IMG/VR virus record: IMGVR_UViG_3300046411_000702
Location: 1 to 50,057 of that record
DNA from: a virus
Strand: one strand, 5' to 3'
Length of the DNA: 50,057 bases
Shown piece by piece: positions 40,161 through 50,057 of this stretch. The translations under genes were made by a program, and so were the position numbers. Every line of letters begins with the position of its first letter. Position 1 is the first letter of the stretch. The notes beneath the pieces were generated by a model. It had not been told where the DNA came from. It saw only the letters and a list, made by a program, of their open reading frames with translations, and did not search any database.

Positions 40161-41849
40161 ATGAATTTGAAAGAAAAACTTTTAGAGGAAGGGATAAGGG
40201 TCAACTCAAATTATGGTCAACAAAAGACTGTATGCCCTAAATGTTCACACACTAGAAAAAATAAAAAAGAGCCGTGTTTATCAGTTAATGTTGAGAATGA
40301 TATAGCCTTATGGCATTGTCATCATTGTGATTGGAAAGGTTCAGTATATGAAAATGTTGTAAAACCAACGTTTTATAAAGAAAAAAAGAATAATGTAGTT
40401 ACATTTTCAAAAGATAATGTTTTAGAAGATAATGCTTGTAGATGGTTAGCCTCAAGGGGCATATCAGAAAACACAGCAAATGAATTAAAAATATACAGCC
40501 ATAATGATAAAATATCGTTTCCTTATTTACTTGATGATAAAATAGTCAATGTAAAATATAGGGGCATAAGTGAAAAAACATTTCATCAACATAAAAATGC
40601 AGTCAAATGTTTATATAATATAGATAGTGTAAAAAAATTATGGTTCAGCGAAGAAAACAAACCTGATAAAAAACAAATCATATTTGTTGAGGGTGAGATT
40701 GATGTACTTACATTATATGAGTGTGGTCTAAAAAATGTAGTTAGTTTACCTGATGGTGCACCTAAAGAAGCTAAGTATGACGAAAATGATAAGAGGTTTA
40801 CTGCATTTGAGAATAGTGAGTGGATATTTGATGCAGATGAAGTGATAATAGCAACTGACCAAGATCAAGCAGGAAATGCATTAAAATTAGAACTGATTGA
40901 TAGGTTTGGTAAAGATATATGTAAAGTAGTTAACTTTCCTTTAAAAGATGCAAATGAAGTTTTAGTTAGTTACGATAAGAACACAGTTTTAAAATATATG
41001 TGTGAAGCTAAAGAGTTCCCTATTGAAGGCTTACATTCAGCATTTGATTATAAGCAAATATTACAAGATATGTATGATGGAAATACTCAAAAAGCTATAT
41101 CAACAGGATTTGAAAAGCTTGATGAAATATATAAAGTTATGCCATCAACATTTAATTTAGTAACAGGAATACCAAACCATGGGAAAAGTAATTTCCTTGA
41201 TCAAATTTTAATGAACCTTGCAGAAAATGAACATTGGAAATTTGCAGTTTATTCACCAGAACATTCAACAGCCAATCATATAAGAAGATTACTTGAAAAA
41301 AGATGTCGCAAACCATTTGACATAGGTGTTTATGAAAGAATTACAGATGAAGAAAAAAATGCAGGTATAGATTTTATTGATAATCATTTTAAATTTATTG
41401 AAAATACTCAAGAAATACCAACTATTGATTACATTTTAAGTAAGACAAAAATAGCAAAACTAAGGTACGGAATTGATGGGCTTATAATTGACCCATTCAA
41501 CCAAGTAAGTGCTGATAGAGAAAATAATAAGCGTGAAGATGAGCATATAAGGGATATAATAGCTAAATGTCAACAGTTTGCTAGAAATTATAATATAGTA
41601 GTATGGATGGTTGCACACCCTCATAAATTACATAGAAATGATAGTGGGGTAATACCTCCTCCAGATTTATATCAAGTTAGTGGCTCTGCACATTGGGCTA
41701 ATATGGCAGACGTAGGTCTTGTTGTGCATAGGGATTTTGAAGAAAACTCAACGAAAATTATTACAAGAAAGATAAGAGAGCAAGGTGTTTACGGACAGAT
41801 AGGACAAGCAGAATTTATTTTTAACTTTAGAACGAGGTGTTACCAATGA
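40161..41849 (+). CDS. Primase-helicase (T7 gp4-like)
   Basis: 562 aa. Zinc site VCPKC ... WHCHHCDWKG (about 22-59), TOPRIM residues IIFVEGEIDVL and IATDQDQAGNAL, RecA-type helicase with Walker A GIPNHGKSNF and Walker B DGLIIDPFNQV. It unwinds DNA and primes lagging strands. No DNA polymerase is present, so the host replisome is presumably recruited. Overlaps the ParB-like gene by 4 bases. Confidence 0.93.
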   Translation: MNLKEKLLEEGIRVNSNYGQQKTVCPKCSHTRKNKKEPCLSVNVENDIALWHCHHCDWKGSVYENVVKPTFYKEKKNNVVTFSKDNVLEDNACRWLASRGISENTANELKIYSHNDKISFPYLLDDKIVNVKYRGISEKTFHQHKNAVKCLYNIDSVKKLWFSEENKPDKKQIIFVEGEIDVLTLYECGLKNVVSLPDGAPKEAKYDENDKRFTAFENSEWIFDADEVIIATDQDQAGNALKLELIDRFGKDICKVVNFPLKDANEVLVSYDKNTVLKYMCEAKEFPIEGLHSAFDYKQILQDMYDGNTQKAISTGFEKLDEIYKVMPSTFNLVTGIPNHGKSNFLDQILMNLAENEHWKFAVYSPEHSTANHIRRLLEKRCRKPFDIGVYERITDEEKNAGIDFIDNHFKFIENTQEIPTIDYILSKTKIAKLRYGIDGLIIDPFNQVSADRENNKREDEHIRDIIAKCQQFARNYNIVVWMVAHPHKLHRNDSGVIPPPDLYQVSGSAHWANMADVGLVVHRDFEENSTKIITRKIREQGVYGQIGQAEFIFNFRTRCYQ

Positions 41850-42463
41850 TAGTAGAAATGTTAAATATTGATGATATTAAGCCATATCCATCAAACCCAA
41901 GGAAAATATCTAAAAAAGCTATAGAAATGGTAGGTAAGAGCATTCAAGAGTACGGATTTAGACAACCTATAGTCGTTGATAAAGATAATGTAATTATAAT
42001 AGGGCATACAAGATTTCAAGCCTCAAGACAACTTGGTCTTAAAGAAGTCCCATGTAATATAGCTGATTTACCTATTGAAAAAGCAAAAGCGTTAAGAATA
42101 GCTGATAACAGAATAAATGAGGAAACAGCATGGGACGATGCAAAACTAATTGAAGAATTAAATAGTTTACTTGAAGTAGATTACTTAATTGATAAATTAG
42201 GTTTCACACAAGAAGAACTTGATAGTTTATTCACAAAAGAAGACATATCTTTAGATGATGATAACGAAGACGATATTAATTATATTGATAATGATATGAA
42301 TGATGTTAAAATGGTACAACTATTCTATAACCCTGATGATGATAAGGTTTTTAGAGAAGGCTTAAATAATGTGATGGATAAATACAATATAACGAATATA
42401 TCTGATGCAGTTCTTAGGTGTGTAAAAAATGAAAACGATAAAATTAAATCCAGTAATAAATGA
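41846..42463 (+). CDS. ParB/Srx-like DNA-binding or nuclease-domain protein
   Basis: 205 aa from ATG 41846 (ATGA overlap with the primase-helicase). IDDIKPYPSNPRKISKKAIEMVGKSI, GFRQPIVVDKDNVIIIGHTRFQASRQLG is the ParB N-terminal domain; ADNRINEETAWD follows. The acidic C-terminal part (DISLDDDNEDDIN) is unusual. In phages this domain is frequently encoded next to DNA methyltransferases and modification genes; here it leads the modification cluster and overlaps the TET/JBP gene by 35 bases. Confidence 0.85.
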   Translation: MIVEMLNIDDIKPYPSNPRKISKKAIEMVGKSIQEYGFRQPIVVDKDNVIIIGHTRFQASRQLGLKEVPCNIADLPIEKAKALRIADNRINEETAWDDAKLIEELNSLLEVDYLIDKLGFTQEELDSLFTKEDISLDDDNEDDINYIDNDMNDVKMVQLFYNPDDDKVFREGLNNVMDKYNITNISDAVLRCVKNENDKIKSSNK

Positions 42464-43409
42464 TGAAGAAGCTAATAAACTTCAAGGTCAATTTATAGAT
42501 GAAAGTCTTGTTAAAATTGAAGTTAACGAAGATTTATGTGTTTTAAAAGAAGATGGTAGTTTATTAGCAGTTTTGAAAAAAAACGTTGTTCCAAAAGATA
42601 TTTTAGAAAAAGCTAGAGTCCCTTTTAGAAAAGCTTGTAAACAATCAAATAATAGAGGAATAGCATCAGGTGATATGTCTCAATTTTACAAAGTTGGTGA
42701 TAAGATTCAAGGGAGAACTATAGCTAAAATAGAAGGAGGAAGATATACAGCCCTTTTAAAAAATGGTAAACTTTCAACAACATCTTATGCTATGCCAGTT
42801 CATAGTTCAGTAATAGGTTATTCAGATAGATATCCAAGAATACCTTACTGTAGAACAACAGCTTATACTCAAAAATATTTTAAAGAATATGCAGAATGCT
42901 TGCCTTACATACATTGTGTAAATACATTTTTTAGCAAACATGCCCCAACTAAATATCATATTCAGAAGCAGTTAGCAGAGAATACTTCACCTGACTTTGT
43001 CATAAAAGATACTGCATTCACTACTGTAACAGTAAATAAAAACTTTAGAACAGCAGGGCATAAGGATAAAGGTGATTTAAAAGAAGGTTTTGGAAATTTA
43101 GGTGTTATTTCAAGAGGTCAGTATAACGGATGTATGACTGTTTTGCCTAAATATGGTGTAGGATTAAATATTAGGGACGGTGATATTGCTTTATTTGACG
43201 TACACGAAGTTCATGGAAATACAAAAGTAGAGGCAAAAAGCTATTATGAACGTATTTCAGTTGTATGTTATTATCGTGAAAAAATGATTTACTGTGGTAC
43301 TAAAGAATATGAATTGAATCGTGCCAAGACTGACACAAAGAAAGTTGCCTTAGACGAGGAAATACAAAAAGCAGATGAAATTAAATCAAAAATATTACAA
43401 GACAGCTAA
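42429..43409 (+). CDS. TET/JBP-type 2-oxoglutarate/Fe(II) DNA base dioxygenase
   Basis: 326 aa. FRTAGHKDKGDLKEGFGNLG carries the iron motif HxD (H211, D213); the distal ligand is probably H262 (EVHGN; H259 is an alternative), and R275 (YERISVVCYY) fits the 2-oxoglutarate-binding Arg. NGCMTVLPKYGVGLNIRDGDIALFDVHE is the double-stranded beta-helix core typical of the JBP/TET family, which oxidises the methyl group of 5-methylcytosine or thymine in DNA. Neighbours suggest the hydroxymethyl group is further modified. The N-terminal 90 residues are not part of the core. Substrate (5mC or T) cannot be told from sequence. Confidence 0.87.
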   Translation: MKTIKLNPVINDEEANKLQGQFIDESLVKIEVNEDLCVLKEDGSLLAVLKKNVVPKDILEKARVPFRKACKQSNNRGIASGDMSQFYKVGDKIQGRTIAKIEGGRYTALLKNGKLSTTSYAMPVHSSVIGYSDRYPRIPYCRTTAYTQKYFKEYAECLPYIHCVNTFFSKHAPTKYHIQKQLAENTSPDFVIKDTAFTTVTVNKNFRTAGHKDKGDLKEGFGNLGVISRGQYNGCMTVLPKYGVGLNIRDGDIALFDVHEVHGNTKVEAKSYYERISVVCYYREKMIYCGTKEYELNRAKTDTKKVALDEEIQKADEIKSKILQDS

Positions 43410-44133
43410 ATTATGTAAAAAATATAATTACATATTTTATAATAATTTTTCGTCAGAAGAAAATGTAAGCAAACATAAACAAAGTTATATACATTTTGTA
43501 AAAAACGAACAACAGCTTGTTTCAGCGAAATGTTTAGCTACTGAGTGGCTTATCAAAGATATAAAAGATAATAACTTAACTTTATTTGAATATTTTGCTG
43601 GGGCAGGGGTATCATCAATTATATTTAATAAAACTATGAATATAAACTATCATGAAGCAACTGACTTTAATCAAGATTGTGTGAATCAATTAAAAAAGAT
43701 GAAAATTATCCATAAAGCATATAAATCTGATTTCAGAAAAATTATTCTAAAAGAAAATAAATTTGATATAAAAGTTTTAGATTTTCCATACTCAAGTATT
43801 TTACAAACTACTAGAGGTGATTGGAATATGTTTGGATACGCTTTTAGCTCTGAACCAAAATATTTGATATGGACTGATACAGCTAGAACTTATCCTTTAT
43901 CAATTCATAAAAAAAAATATGAAAAGATTTTAAATGATTCACTTAATGATTATGAAGATTATTTTGAAAAATACTCAAATCTTTTGTTTCAAAATTATAG
44001 ATACAGAATAAATAAGGTTGCATGGAGAGGTAAAAACGCAAATTATATTTTGGCATCAAAACAAAATACAAATATAAGTCATAAAATGTTTGAACTTAAT
44101 GAAAAAAATGAGGGCTTTCAATGGATAACATAG
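43375..44133 (+). CDS. Methyltransferase-fold protein with atypical DFPYS motif
   Basis: 252 aa. LFEYFAGAGVSSIIF (residues 70-84) is a SAM-binding FxGxG-type motif; residue D97 or E94 (YHEATDFN) is at the acidic position; DFPYS (136-140) occupies the place of the NPPY/DPPY motif of amino-MTases. It could methylate DNA (feeding the dioxygenase) or have shifted to another group transfer. The Pro-Cys of 5mC methyltransferases is absent, so 5mC formation is not supported. It overlaps the dioxygenase by 35 bases and the next gene by 13. Confidence 0.65.
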   Translation: MKLNQKYYKTAKLCKKYNYIFYNNFSSEENVSKHKQSYIHFVKNEQQLVSAKCLATEWLIKDIKDNNLTLFEYFAGAGVSSIIFNKTMNINYHEATDFNQDCVNQLKKMKIIHKAYKSDFRKIILKENKFDIKVLDFPYSSILQTTRGDWNMFGYAFSSEPKYLIWTDTARTYPLSIHKKKYEKILNDSLNDYEDYFEKYSNLLFQNYRYRINKVAWRGKNANYILASKQNTNISHKMFELNEKNEGFQWIT

Positions 44134-45242
44134 GAAGATATTGTGCTATTCATGATATATATGAAGATTCAAATTTAAAAAAAGGATATGACTTTCGTTT
44201 ACCACAGTACAGAAGAGAAGTATTTCTACGTTTATATGAATTTAATTTAAAGTATAATGCTCATGCAGGGTTTGTATATGGTGCTTTACCTTATTTGAAC
44301 AATAAATTTAATCTAGATAATGAGCAAAAACTTTGGTTAGGTTTTATTAATGGATGTACGCAAAATATTGTAACATCATGGATAGTCTTTGAACTGTTTC
44401 CTAATATTAAAGAATTTAATGTAGATACATTTAATAAATGGTGGAATATAAATTATAAAAAATTTATGGTTGGCAAAGGTTGGGATTTAGATAGAAGATA
44501 TTTTAAAATAGGGAAAACTGGTTTCCCACAGTGTATTGATTCTTATATAAAACAAGTTGTCAAGTTTGGTAATCAAACAAATATGTTTAATGCTATATGC
44601 AATAAAAATGATAAATATCAAAACTTTGAGAATTTATGGACATTTATAAGAGAGAACTTTTTGAGTTTTGGAAGATTATCAACCTTTTCGTATACAGAGT
44701 TTTTGAGGATTCAAGGTTTAAATATTGATTGTAACAATTTATTCTTAGAAGACATATCAGGAAGTAAGTCACATAGGAACGGATTATGTAAGGTTCTTGG
44801 TCGTGATGACTTAGATTGGTGGAAAGATAAAGTTAAATATTCACCAGAGATAATATCTTGGTTGAAAGACGAAGCAAATATGCTTTTTAATGAAATGAAA
44901 GCACGCAACAACCATGAACATTTAAGCTTTTACACCTTTGAAACAGCTTTATGTAACTACAAATCAATGCATAGACCCAAACGAAGATACCCTAATGTAT
45001 ATAATGACATGTTTTTTAATCGTATTAAATACGCAGAATCAGTATGGGAAAAGCCATTTGATATATTTTGGCAGATGAGGAAAGAATTATTACCAAGCGA
45101 ATTAAGGCTTGAAAATAATAAAAAAGATGTTGGCTTACATCACTTAAAACAAAATCATTATCTTAACACTGGAGAAGTTATAATGATGGATAAGGAGTGG
45201 GAGTGCTTTCAAAACTCTTATAATGATTATGTTAATGGCTAA
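44121..45242 (+). CDS. Putative base-hypermodification protein (aGPT-Pplase/5-hmdU kinase helical-domain-like)
   Basis: 373 aa. The pattern REVFLRLYEFNLKYNAHAGFVY, LWLGFINGCTQNIVTSWIVFELFP is what I recall of the all-helical family named alpha-glutamyl/putrescinyl-thymine pyrophosphorylase (also annotated as the 5-hmdU DNA kinase helical domain), seen in phages SP10, PhiW-14 and ViI. It acts with a P-loop kinase in thymine hypermodification. The kinase gene directly follows with an 8-base overlap. I cannot confirm family membership by search; the combination with a TET/JBP gene strengthens it. Several lysine/aromatic-rich segments lie in the C-terminal half. Confidence 0.72.
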   Translation: MDNIGRYCAIHDIYEDSNLKKGYDFRLPQYRREVFLRLYEFNLKYNAHAGFVYGALPYLNNKFNLDNEQKLWLGFINGCTQNIVTSWIVFELFPNIKEFNVDTFNKWWNINYKKFMVGKGWDLDRRYFKIGKTGFPQCIDSYIKQVVKFGNQTNMFNAICNKNDKYQNFENLWTFIRENFLSFGRLSTFSYTEFLRIQGLNIDCNNLFLEDISGSKSHRNGLCKVLGRDDLDWWKDKVKYSPEIISWLKDEANMLFNEMKARNNHEHLSFYTFETALCNYKSMHRPKRRYPNVYNDMFFNRIKYAESVWEKPFDIFWQMRKELLPSELRLENNKKDVGLHHLKQNHYLNTGEVIMMDKEWECFQNSYNDYVNG

Positions 45243-45777
45243 AATAGTAGCTATAGGTGGCATACCTGCATCAGGAAAAACAACTATTATAAAAAAGTTC
45301 TTTTTTAAATACCCAAAGTTTAAAACATTTAAATGGAGACTTATATCAGGGCATTTCATAAAAGAATTAAATTTATTTATATTAGGAAGATATGATGGGA
45401 ACGATACATTCTTAGGCACAGATAAGCTATCAATGTCAGTACAACCAGATTACAAACGTTTTATAAATAAATATAAAGATGTAAATATTCTATTTGAGGG
45501 AGATAGACTATTTAATATAAAATCATTAGATGAATCAAAGCTTACACATAACCTAAAAGTATATATTATTGAGTCATACGATACTGATAAAAGACATAAA
45601 GATAGGAATGATAACCAATCAGAAAAGTTTATCAAAGGTAGATACACTAAAATAAAAAATATCAAAACTTATCTAAATAATGAATTTACTATATTAAACA
45701 ACGACTTATATGAAGATATACAGACTAATTTTGATACTTTATTAAGTGAATTTGATAATACTTTGATAAATAAATGA
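45235..45777 (+). CDS. P-loop kinase, candidate hydroxymethyl-pyrimidine DNA kinase
   Basis: 180 aa from ATG 45235 (MAKIVAIGGIPASGKTT), Walker A GGIPASGKTT at residues 8-17. NILFEGDRLFNIKSL is a Walker-B-like strand and the C-terminal half (ESYDTDKRHKDRNDNQSEKFIKGR) holds a lid-like basic region. Small kinases of this type phosphorylate 5-hydroxymethyl bases in phage DNA. Context (aGPT-Pplase-like protein, dioxygenase) makes this the likely role; a polynucleotide or nucleotide kinase is the alternative. Closes the modification operon. Confidence 0.75.
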   Translation: MAKIVAIGGIPASGKTTIIKKFFFKYPKFKTFKWRLISGHFIKELNLFILGRYDGNDTFLGTDKLSMSVQPDYKRFINKYKDVNILFEGDRLFNIKSLDESKLTHNLKVYIIESYDTDKRHKDRNDNQSEKFIKGRYTKIKNIKTYLNNEFTILNNDLYEDIQTNFDTLLSEFDNTLINK

Positions 45778-49672: not shown

Positions 49673-50057
49673 ATGGAATTATTGATAATACAGCGAAAAG
49701 CGAATGGAAGACTTGTTTCGCCAAGAAAAGAGCTTATTGAACAAACAAGAATAAGATCAAGACTTGAAAGTAAATTTTATACTAAATTATTGAAAATATT
49801 TATTCTTATAGGAGACAAAGTATCTGATGATATTTTACAAGGTCAGATAAATCCTAAATCATTAGAAAGAATAGAGCCTCTTATAGGTGATGAGCTAATT
49901 AAACATTACAGAGAAGTAATGCAAATATTTACTGAAAGAAGCTTATCACTTTTTACAAACCTTAAAAGAAGACAAAGAACATTTGAGGAATATGTTCAAA
50001 GCTACATAAGAGAAGTTGGTGGAATGAAAATTACTTCAATTAGTAATACATCAAGAA
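49673..50057 (+). CDS. MuF-like minor head protein, 5' part
   Basis: Start ATG 49673 with GAGGAGG nine bases upstream; reads MELLIIQRKANGRLVSPRKELIEQTRI and remains open to the end, joining the frame at base 2 of the window (residues 1-128 here, 538 in total). The helical segment (FYTKLLKIFILIGDKVSDDIL) is the usual N-terminal arm of this family that contacts the portal, whose gene is 62 bases upstream. Those 62 bases hold no ORF or clear promoter. Confidence 0.9.
   Translation, partial: MELLIIQRKANGRLVSPRKELIEQTRIRSRLESKFYTKLLKIFILIGDKVSDDILQGQINPKSLERIEPLIGDELIKHYREVMQIFTERSLSLFTNLKRRQRTFEEYVQSYIREVGGMKITSISNTSR
50029..50057. repeat. Right copy of 29-bp terminal direct repeat
   Basis: Exact duplicate of bases 1-29; see that entry for the closure argument. 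Confidence 0.9.

Follow-up and report, generated by a model that had tools for sequence, protein, structure and literature searches.

Five consecutive genes of a phage encode a ParB-like protein, a TET/JBP dioxygenase, a protein with a methyltransferase fold (called MT252 here), a protein of 373 amino acids and a P-loop kinase. The locus raises the question of whether these proteins together modify a base of the finished phage DNA and, if so, which base. They probably constitute a post-replicative pathway for thymine hypermodification, in which an amino acid would be placed on oxidised, phosphorylated thymine, the chemistry being what we infer from the relatives of the enzymes.

Genome and gene organisation

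The stretch of DNA analysed, referred to as the window, is the 50,057-nucleotide virus record IMGVR_UViG_3300046411_000702. Its ends share a 29-bp overlap and one open reading frame reads across the junction, so it is a complete circular phage genome. The five genes are located on one strand, in the following order:

41846–42463, + strand: ParB-like protein, 205 amino acids from ATG 41846 (Pfam ParB_N, 3.1e-11; phrog_620, 6.1e-47)
42429–43409, + strand: TET/JBP 2-oxoglutarate/Fe(II) dioxygenase (Pfam Tet_JBP, 4.9e-25, 88.1 bits)
43375–44133, + strand: MT252, predicted class I SAM-dependent methyltransferase fold (predicted fold, motifs)
44121–45242, + strand: 373-residue protein, by profile and predicted fold a divergent amino acid:DNA transferase (ADDT) (phrog_3271, 1.5e-64; hhalign)
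45223–45777, + strand: P-loop kinase, 184 amino acids, or 180 from the inner ATG 45235 (Walker A motif; hhalign)

The reading frames lie where the initial annotation of this DNA had placed them, on one strand and overlapping. Counting the primase-helicase gene, the overlaps are 4, 35, 35, 13 and 20 bases; the first four agree with that annotation, while the last had been given as 8 bases, a value that follows if the kinase starts at ATG 45235. An alternative start of the ParB-like protein is possible at GTG 41837, upstream of ATG 41846. The same five-gene order is kept in dozens of viral contigs. Dereplication left 61 cassettes that combine TET, ADDT and kinase genes, 38 of them containing MT252, and their order is almost always identical, which shows that the gene set is not a product of chance.

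The ParB-like protein and the dioxygenase

In most marine loci, ParB is located ahead of TET. The protein probably binds DNA, or brings the set of enzymes to it. A weak resemblance of the ParB-like protein to an L-serine kinase family (E 0.0048) was also observed.

The dioxygenase belongs to the Tet_JBP family (PF12851), its 88.1 bits comparing with a cut-off of 34.9. The HxD...H iron triad and the 2-oxoglutarate arginine are present at the positions noted earlier and are near-invariant among the 153 TET proteins collected: His211 is found in 152 of them, and Asp213, His262 and Arg275 in all 153. A sequence search of the PDB with the TET protein gave no meaningful match.

The putative transferase and the kinase

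The 373-residue protein contains the motifs REVFLRLYEFNLKYN (at residue 32) and NGCTQNIVTSW (at residue 77), and the kinase a Walker A motif, GIPASGKT, at residue 13, as had been described. With the Pfam ADDT family (PF18724), the 373-residue protein gives no match at E ≤ 1, and it is therefore termed a divergent relative rather than a member of that family. When its profile was aligned using hhalign with that of the ADDT-scoring clade, the members of which reach 65–179 bits with PF18724, full-length homology was found (probability 100, E 1.7e-41, 315 columns). In a comparison of its predicted fold (pLDDT 90.4) with the PDB, entries 8z2m and 8z2n were alone in reaching a probability of 1.00, with all others at 0.03 or less. 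These are structures of gp46 of phage PaMx11, the 5-phosphomethyl-deoxyuridine (5-PmdU) glycinyltransferase PUGT, which matches the 373-residue protein with a TM-score of about 0.5 and a sequence identity of 12–13%. The protein in 8z2m is homologous to a PAC7 protein that scores as an ADDT, and PF18724 takes in its close relatives. A PDB sequence search with the ADDT profile found no related structure, the link being made by the fold. Aligning the ADDT profile with a single Yuavirus ADDT sequence also gave no link (probability 0.9), so the connection to PUGT runs through intermediates and the fold. These profiles and the predicted fold make the 373-residue protein a divergent ADDT (aGPT-Pplase2 in the earlier nomenclature), in line with the aGPT-Pplase likeness proposed initially. 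Its putative activity would be the replacement by an amino acid of the phosphate on 5-phosphomethyluracil in DNA. An open reading frame of phage Melnitz (L002:6269), also considered as a candidate ADDT, proved not to be one.

The kinase scores 17.1 bits with PF18751, below the cut-off of 27, and is for this reason likewise termed divergent. Using hhalign, it aligns with the kinase of phage Tonitrus (which itself matches PF18751 at 3.6e-50) with a probability of 98.6 and E 1.1e-15, and with the 5hmdU kinase (PF18748) of the ViI-like phage Marshall with a probability of 91.5 and E 8.6e-7; an unrelated P-loop kinase, used as a control, gave a probability of 1.0. These alignments identify it as a divergent relative of the 5hmdU DNA kinases (PF18748, PF18751), the proposed target of which is a 5-hydroxymethyl group in DNA. 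With both proteins below their Pfam cut-offs, family membership rests on the profiles and the fold. The initial annotation was to be abandoned if either protein proved to belong to an unrelated family; both are related to the families expected.

The MTase-fold protein MT252

MT252 has no match in Pfam, PHROG or NCBIfam. Comparison of its AlphaFold model (pLDDT 88.6, pTM 0.87) using Foldseek retrieved class I methyltransferases at E 1e-7, with Trm1 among the closest. Relatives were found by an alignment-based scan, a single-sequence scan having given none, and in the alignment 17 relatives share motif I (EYFAGxG) and motif IV (D[FL]P). With a Rossmann methyltransferase fold and both motifs, MT252 has the features of a class I SAM-dependent methyltransferase, while motif IV reads D[FL]P where PCQ would be expected in a C5-cytosine methyltransferase. 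Among 84,980 genomes of bacteria and archaea, tblastn confirmed no relative. Searched against PDB sequences, the MT252 profile returned only protein kinases, at E 0.015 or worse, which were taken as chance matches.

Thymine or cytosine

In the initial annotation, the dioxygenase was thought to stand in for a hydroxymethyl-dUMP synthase, of which no gene had been seen. Indeed, the complete window genome has no match to the thymidylate synthase (TS) family (PF00303), and thus does not contain the TS-family dUMP hydroxymethylase of the classical M6/ViI pathway; it also has no C5-methyltransferase gene (PF00145). No TS-family gene was found in 24 TET-bearing records, comprising the window, cassettes with and without ADDT, and contigs of up to 173 kb. 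The ten complete ADDT-encoding phage genomes examined (the ADDT of Montesquieu being scored by tblastn) contain either TET (three) or a divergent TS-family hydroxymethylase (seven), never both and never neither, counts that are not independent, as several of the ten phages are Ackermannviridae. The three with TET are Tonitrus, Zemanar and Cr30, none of which has a divergent TS, the TS of Cr30 being full-length and canonical. This swap supports the replacement of the synthase by the dioxygenase. The complementary case is a 91-kb phage without TET (G001), which carries MT252 within a canonical 5hmdU DNA pathway. Its gene content also includes ADDT, kinases and HMUDK_hel, and its TS-family gene encodes the uracil-type Asn. 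Because of the swap, the content of this phage and the fact that a C5-methyltransferase is missing from 31 related contigs and from all named ADDT phages tested, the substrate of the window TET is likely to be thymine rather than 5-methylcytosine.

Alternatively, TET might oxidise 5-methylcytosine that comes from the host or from MT252, which would then be an unusual C5-methyltransferase, with the kinase and transferase decorating the resulting 5-hydroxymethylcytosine. Phage TETs that occur with C5-methyltransferases and TET-associated glycosyltransferases are said, in work by Burke et al. from 2021, to act on cytosine. In Melnitz, a C5-methyltransferase, a TET and a relative of the kinase are found side by side, and TETs 66–67% identical to that of the window adjoin TAGT glycosyltransferases in other loci. 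In those systems (PF20691), TET also follows ParB, whereas a glycosyltransferase takes the place of kinase, ADDT and MT252. We consider the cytosine route unlikely: the complete window and the 31 related contigs lack a C5-methyltransferase, the other named ADDT phages go by uracil, and the ADDT shares its fold with an enzyme acting on 5-phosphomethyl-deoxyuridine. MT252 is rejected as the C5-methyltransferase supplying TET, given its motif IV and its occurrence in a phage that has a uracil-type hydroxymethylase and no TET. If TET does act on thymine, any DNA could be modified after replication, with the nucleotide pool kept free of 5hmdUTP. The TET/dUMP hydroxymethylase swap offers a simple genomic rule for predicting the base used by a phage TET.

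Proposed pathway

In the thymine pathway, TET/JBP would act on thymine in finished DNA and convert it to 5-hydroxymethyluracil (5hmU) by hydroxylating its methyl group. The kinase, judging by its kinship to the 5hmdU DNA kinases, would phosphorylate the hydroxyl to 5-phosphomethyl-dU, after which the divergent ADDT, as suggested by fold and profile, would exchange the phosphate for an amino acid in the manner of PUGT. Finally, MT252 would alter the attached amino acid in a SAM-dependent reaction, most simply by N-methylation; this is the weakest step, because MT252 is placed there by its fold, SAM motifs and operon position. ParB probably carries the enzymes to the DNA, and the end product would shield the phage genome from host nucleases. 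Such a compact set from a small complete genome makes the whole route accessible to mass spectrometry through expression in E. coli.

Phospho-5hmU or plain 5hmU might instead be the main product, with the transferase and MT252 acting rarely or elsewhere. Phosphorylated 5hmdU alone stops several restriction enzymes (PMC7653180), and three loci (L013, L032 and L033) contain only ParB, TET and kinase. However, the transferase is strongly kept in the lineage of the window, at 62–73% identity, and adjoins the kinase throughout, making this improbable. That RNA or protein is the target, as the likeness of MT252 to the tRNA methyltransferase Trm1 might suggest, is very hard to credit, given that the relatives of TET, kinase and ADDT are all in DNA-modifying families and that MT252 is found inside the 5hmdU DNA pathway of G001.

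Relation to known systems

Hydroxymethyl pyrimidines made by TET/JBP enzymes were reportedly predicted by Iyer et al. in 2013 to be the start of complex DNA modifications, which is the general idea of the thymine pathway proposed here. Lee et al. are said to have described thymidine hypermodification in phages M6, ViI and PhiW-14 in 2018. In the pathway of these phages (PMC6449724), 5hmU in DNA is also phosphorylated and then receives amino groups, with a kinase and ADDT that are homologous to, or have the same fold as, those of the window; however, a thymidylate-synthase-family enzyme supplies their 5hmdU at the nucleotide level, the role taken by TET in the window. In mycobacteriophage Zemanar (L088), gp1 to gp3 are ParB, TET and ADDT in consecutive order, but the row lacks kinase and MT252, and the TET is below the Pfam cut-off.

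The closest parallel in gene content is Rhodococcus phage Tonitrus (L086), for which a five-gene thymidine hypermodification set with a hybrid route was reported in 2025 (PMC11955845). Like the window, it has ParB, a TET-like protein, ADDT (aGPT-Pplase2) and a Ploopntkinase3 kinase; in Tonitrus these lie in a single operon at the genome start. Unlike the window, it has no MT252, contains small proteins between TET and ADDT, and encodes a 293-residue hypothetical protein without significant Pfam match after the kinase. A hybrid of the two known routes, as initially proposed, is thus supported as a reading of the window but is not a novelty; the general recipe of a TET-made base that is then decorated had already been predicted and reported.

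New here is the MT252 family, absent from Pfam, PHROG and NCBIfam, and a concrete candidate for new tailoring chemistry on DNA. Its proposed role is to tailor the amino acid attached by the ADDT. Tentatively, it may be a new DNA-base tailoring family that transfers a methyl or aminocarboxypropyl group from SAM onto an amino acid already on thymine, yielding an undescribed hypermodified base for which ordinary thymine would be the starting point and every step would follow replication. In the slot of MT252, other cassettes have either a PLP enzyme, which in some of them is fused to the ADDT, or an amidotransferase/GNAT set, in some cases accompanied by an amidoligase-like protein. The slot is not strictly exclusive, since in the lineage L135/L137, which has MT252, L135 carries a PLP enzyme as well.

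Organisation of the locus

The window bears an exact 29-bp direct terminal repeat (1–29 and 50029–50057), and an ORF beginning at 49673 crosses the end junction in frame to 1261, giving a joined product of 538 amino acids. It is therefore treated as complete and circularly assembled, the genome measuring 50,028 bp with a G+C content of 33.5%, so that the absence of a gene from it is informative. The five-gene set described in the initial annotation is confirmed, and is located between the primase-helicase gene and the terminase genes:

40161–41849, primase-helicase
41846–45777, + strand, five ORFs: ParB-like protein (41846–42463), TET/JBP dioxygenase (TET), methyltransferase-fold protein MT252 (43375–44133), 373-residue protein and P-loop kinase

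Recomputing the overlaps between consecutive genes gave the same 4, 35, 35 and 13 bases as claimed before; the last, claimed as 8 bases, holds if the kinase starts at its inner ATG and is otherwise 20 bases. All the motifs quoted previously are found at the residues stated. Elsewhere in the genome (8856–14176), several diverged direct repeats of 70–79% identity lie within and around genes, two of which match tail fibre families.

The core enzymes

The TET protein scores 88.1 bits against Pfam Tet_JBP, and its iron and 2-oxoglutarate residues are kept in 152–153 of 153 relatives. Relatives are encoded by HTVC112P, Nonlabens phage P12024L, Stenotrophomonas phage DLP_6, Caulobacter phage Cr30 and Methylophilales phage Melnitz, among others, and by at least 80 IMG/VR contigs. 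Downstream of related TETs outside the set lies a TAGT glycosyltransferase gene, a gene for an FkbM methyltransferase, or just the kinase gene. Zemanar gp2 (L088 785–1759), annotated as "queuine tRNA-ribosyltransferase", is a TET/JBP-type protein with the HxD...H...R motif and an ADDT (amino acid:DNA transferase) gene downstream of it; its match to the TET profile, at 26 bits, is below the cut-off.

The 373-residue protein has no meaningful match of its own in Pfam. It belongs to phrog_3271 and shares 35–38% identity with mycobacteriophage Zemanar gp3 and with a protein of a Glutamicibacter phage whose deposited name is "alpha-glutamyl/putrescinyl thymine pyrophosphorylase clade 2". Zemanar gp3, Cr30 gp123, Tonitrus gp6 and a second marine clade pass the PF18724 ("ADDT, amino acid:DNA transferase") cut-off, and profile comparison joins the clade of the window protein to this second clade with a probability of 100 (E 1.7e-41). 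When its AlphaFold model (pLDDT 90.4, pTM 0.91) was compared with 350,542 PDB chains, a single fold matched with probability 1.00, that of the 5-phosphomethyl-2'-deoxyuridine glycinyltransferase of phage PaMx11 (8z2m/8z2n), relatives of which fall within PF18724; all other matches had probabilities of 0.03 or less. Two tandem ADDT-family genes precede the kinase in L148, L171, L178 and L184.

The kinase contains a Walker A motif. A profile of twelve of its relatives matches the Tonitrus kinase (E 1.1e-15), which itself matches PF18751 (3.6e-50), and, in phage Marshall, the 5hmdU kinase of ViI-like type (E 8.6e-7), which matches PF18748, 5hmdU DNA kinase (9.9e-116); an unrelated P-loop kinase, used as a control, gave a probability of 1.0 on a scale of 100. 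As the window kinase itself scores below the Pfam cut-off, it is described, from these profiles, as a divergent relative of the 5hmdU DNA kinases. The phrog_800 kinases of Cr30 (L005 21758–22303) and Marshall (L125 609–1280) are annotated as "terminase small subunit", likely a propagated misannotation.

Thymine or cytosine

In the 91-kb phage contig G001, which has no TET match, MT252, ADDT (4.2e-16), HMUDK_hel (4.5e-43) and kinases are accompanied by an adjoining thymidylate synthase (TS)-family gene. The region concerned (L119 4896–10050) places MT252 inside a canonical 5hmdU pathway, in which the kinases are two P-loop kinases and the TS-family gene is a candidate hydroxymethylase gene. The TS-family gene is closest to Abidjanvirus (38.5%) and Yuavirus (32%) phage genes. 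Its product retains Asn at the column of an Asp in the T4 dCMP hydroxymethylase, in an alignment read by eye with T4 offset by one column; Asn at this position marks uracil substrates.

In ten complete named ADDT genomes, TET (Tonitrus, Zemanar, Cr30) and a divergent TS-family gene (Montesquieu, in which ADDT was detected by tblastn, ViI, Marshall, PAC7, Cygsa01, K469, Bue1) are mutually exclusive. So clean a split has a chance of 1 in 120 for ten independent genomes, which these are not, several being Ackermannviridae. Cr30 additionally has a full-length canonical TS (373 bits). A TS-family gene is present in 0 of 24 TET-bearing records, which include the window as well as contigs as long as 173 and 169 kb. 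Neither the window nor 31 related contigs yielded a C5-methyltransferase gene; of sixteen named phages, Melnitz alone has one, and Melnitz is without ADDT. As evidence from gene content, G001, the mutual exclusion and these absences together point to a TET that acts on thymine, with 5hmU passed on to the kinase and ADDT.

The Melnitz-3 locus (L002 4010–8090) contains an HhaI-type C5-methyltransferase, TET, an uncharacterised 427-residue protein and a kinase related to that of the window, possibly a route phosphorylating 5hmC in DNA.

MT252 and the proposed tailoring genes

MT252 has no meaningful family match in Pfam, PHROGs or NCBIfam. Its predicted structure (pLDDT 88.6, pTM 0.87) is that of a class I SAM methyltransferase, and one of the nearer experimental structures is that of the tRNA N2,N2-guanine methyltransferase Trm1 (TM up to 0.57). 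Comparison with a library of viral models gave just two full-length matches (TM 0.73–0.82), both to proteins from uncultured phages, the remaining matches having TM values of 0.52 or less. In seventeen relatives, motif I retains EYFAGxG and motif IV retains D[FL]P; PCQ is absent. MT252 was located in 35 viral loci, and a scan of species genomes gave no confirmed case.

Fetched loci were typed with profiles built in this analysis, leaving 61 TET + ADDT + kinase cassettes after dereplication.

Proposed tailoring genes in the 61 cassettes
MT252: 38/61
Class II amidotransferase: 14/61, mostly with GNAT, half also with an amidoligase-like protein (so labelled from a weak Pfam match)
PLP-type protein: 5/61, fused N-terminally to ADDT in three
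No tailoring gene: 3/61
TAGT-like protein: 1/61 (Cr30)

The PLP-type assignment is based on a sequence resemblance (FKREDKFxxxG...NGSKLR) judged by eye and on the name under which the neighbouring gene of phage Montesquieu was deposited. In fusions of 711–712 residues (L146 4978–7116, L158 2063–4198), this ACC-deaminase-like domain precedes ADDT; elsewhere the gene is separate and occupies the place of MT252. L026, L034, L050 and L064 have a longer tailoring branch, in which ParB and TET are followed by class II amidotransferase, amidoligase-like protein, GNAT, ADDT and kinase. One lineage (L135/L137) breaks the exclusivity, L135 containing both MT252 and a PLP-type gene. The natural reading is a constant core that hydroxylates, phosphorylates and adds an amino acid, with a swappable tailoring step.

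Proposed pathway

TET would convert T in DNA to 5hmU, the kinase would form 5-phosphomethyl-U from this, and the 373-residue protein, as a divergent ADDT, would yield 5-(amino acid)-methyl-U. Homology and the exchange of TET for a TS-family hydroxymethylase make these three steps, taken jointly, probable. MT252 may then alter the attached amino acid in a SAM-dependent manner, as its fold, motif and position suggest; N-methylation is a tentative candidate for this reaction. The pathway interpretation of the initial annotation finds support at the gene level.

TET-made hydroxymethyl pyrimidines were reportedly predicted as starting points by Iyer et al. in 2013. The hybrid route of TET, ADDT and kinase has already been reported: the Tonitrus announcement presents a set for thymidine hypermodification made up of ParB, a TET-like J-binding protein, aGPT-Pplase2 and a 5hmU DNA kinase (PMC11955845). 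Pelagiphages carrying TS and aG/PT-PPlase1 are also known (PMC9599517), and the kinase step has been described, along with how it affects restriction (PMC6449724, PMC7653180). The new part is MT252; its family and the evidence from the exchange are what is added to the reported route.

The ParB-like protein weakly matches a family of ADP-dependent L-serine kinases (E 0.0048). Since ParB-fold kinases acting on free serine exist, it might conceivably help to prepare the amino acid. A tandem pair of ParB-like genes precedes TET in L160, L176 and L189, the TET position in L189 being a 260-residue ORF unlabelled by the TET profile.
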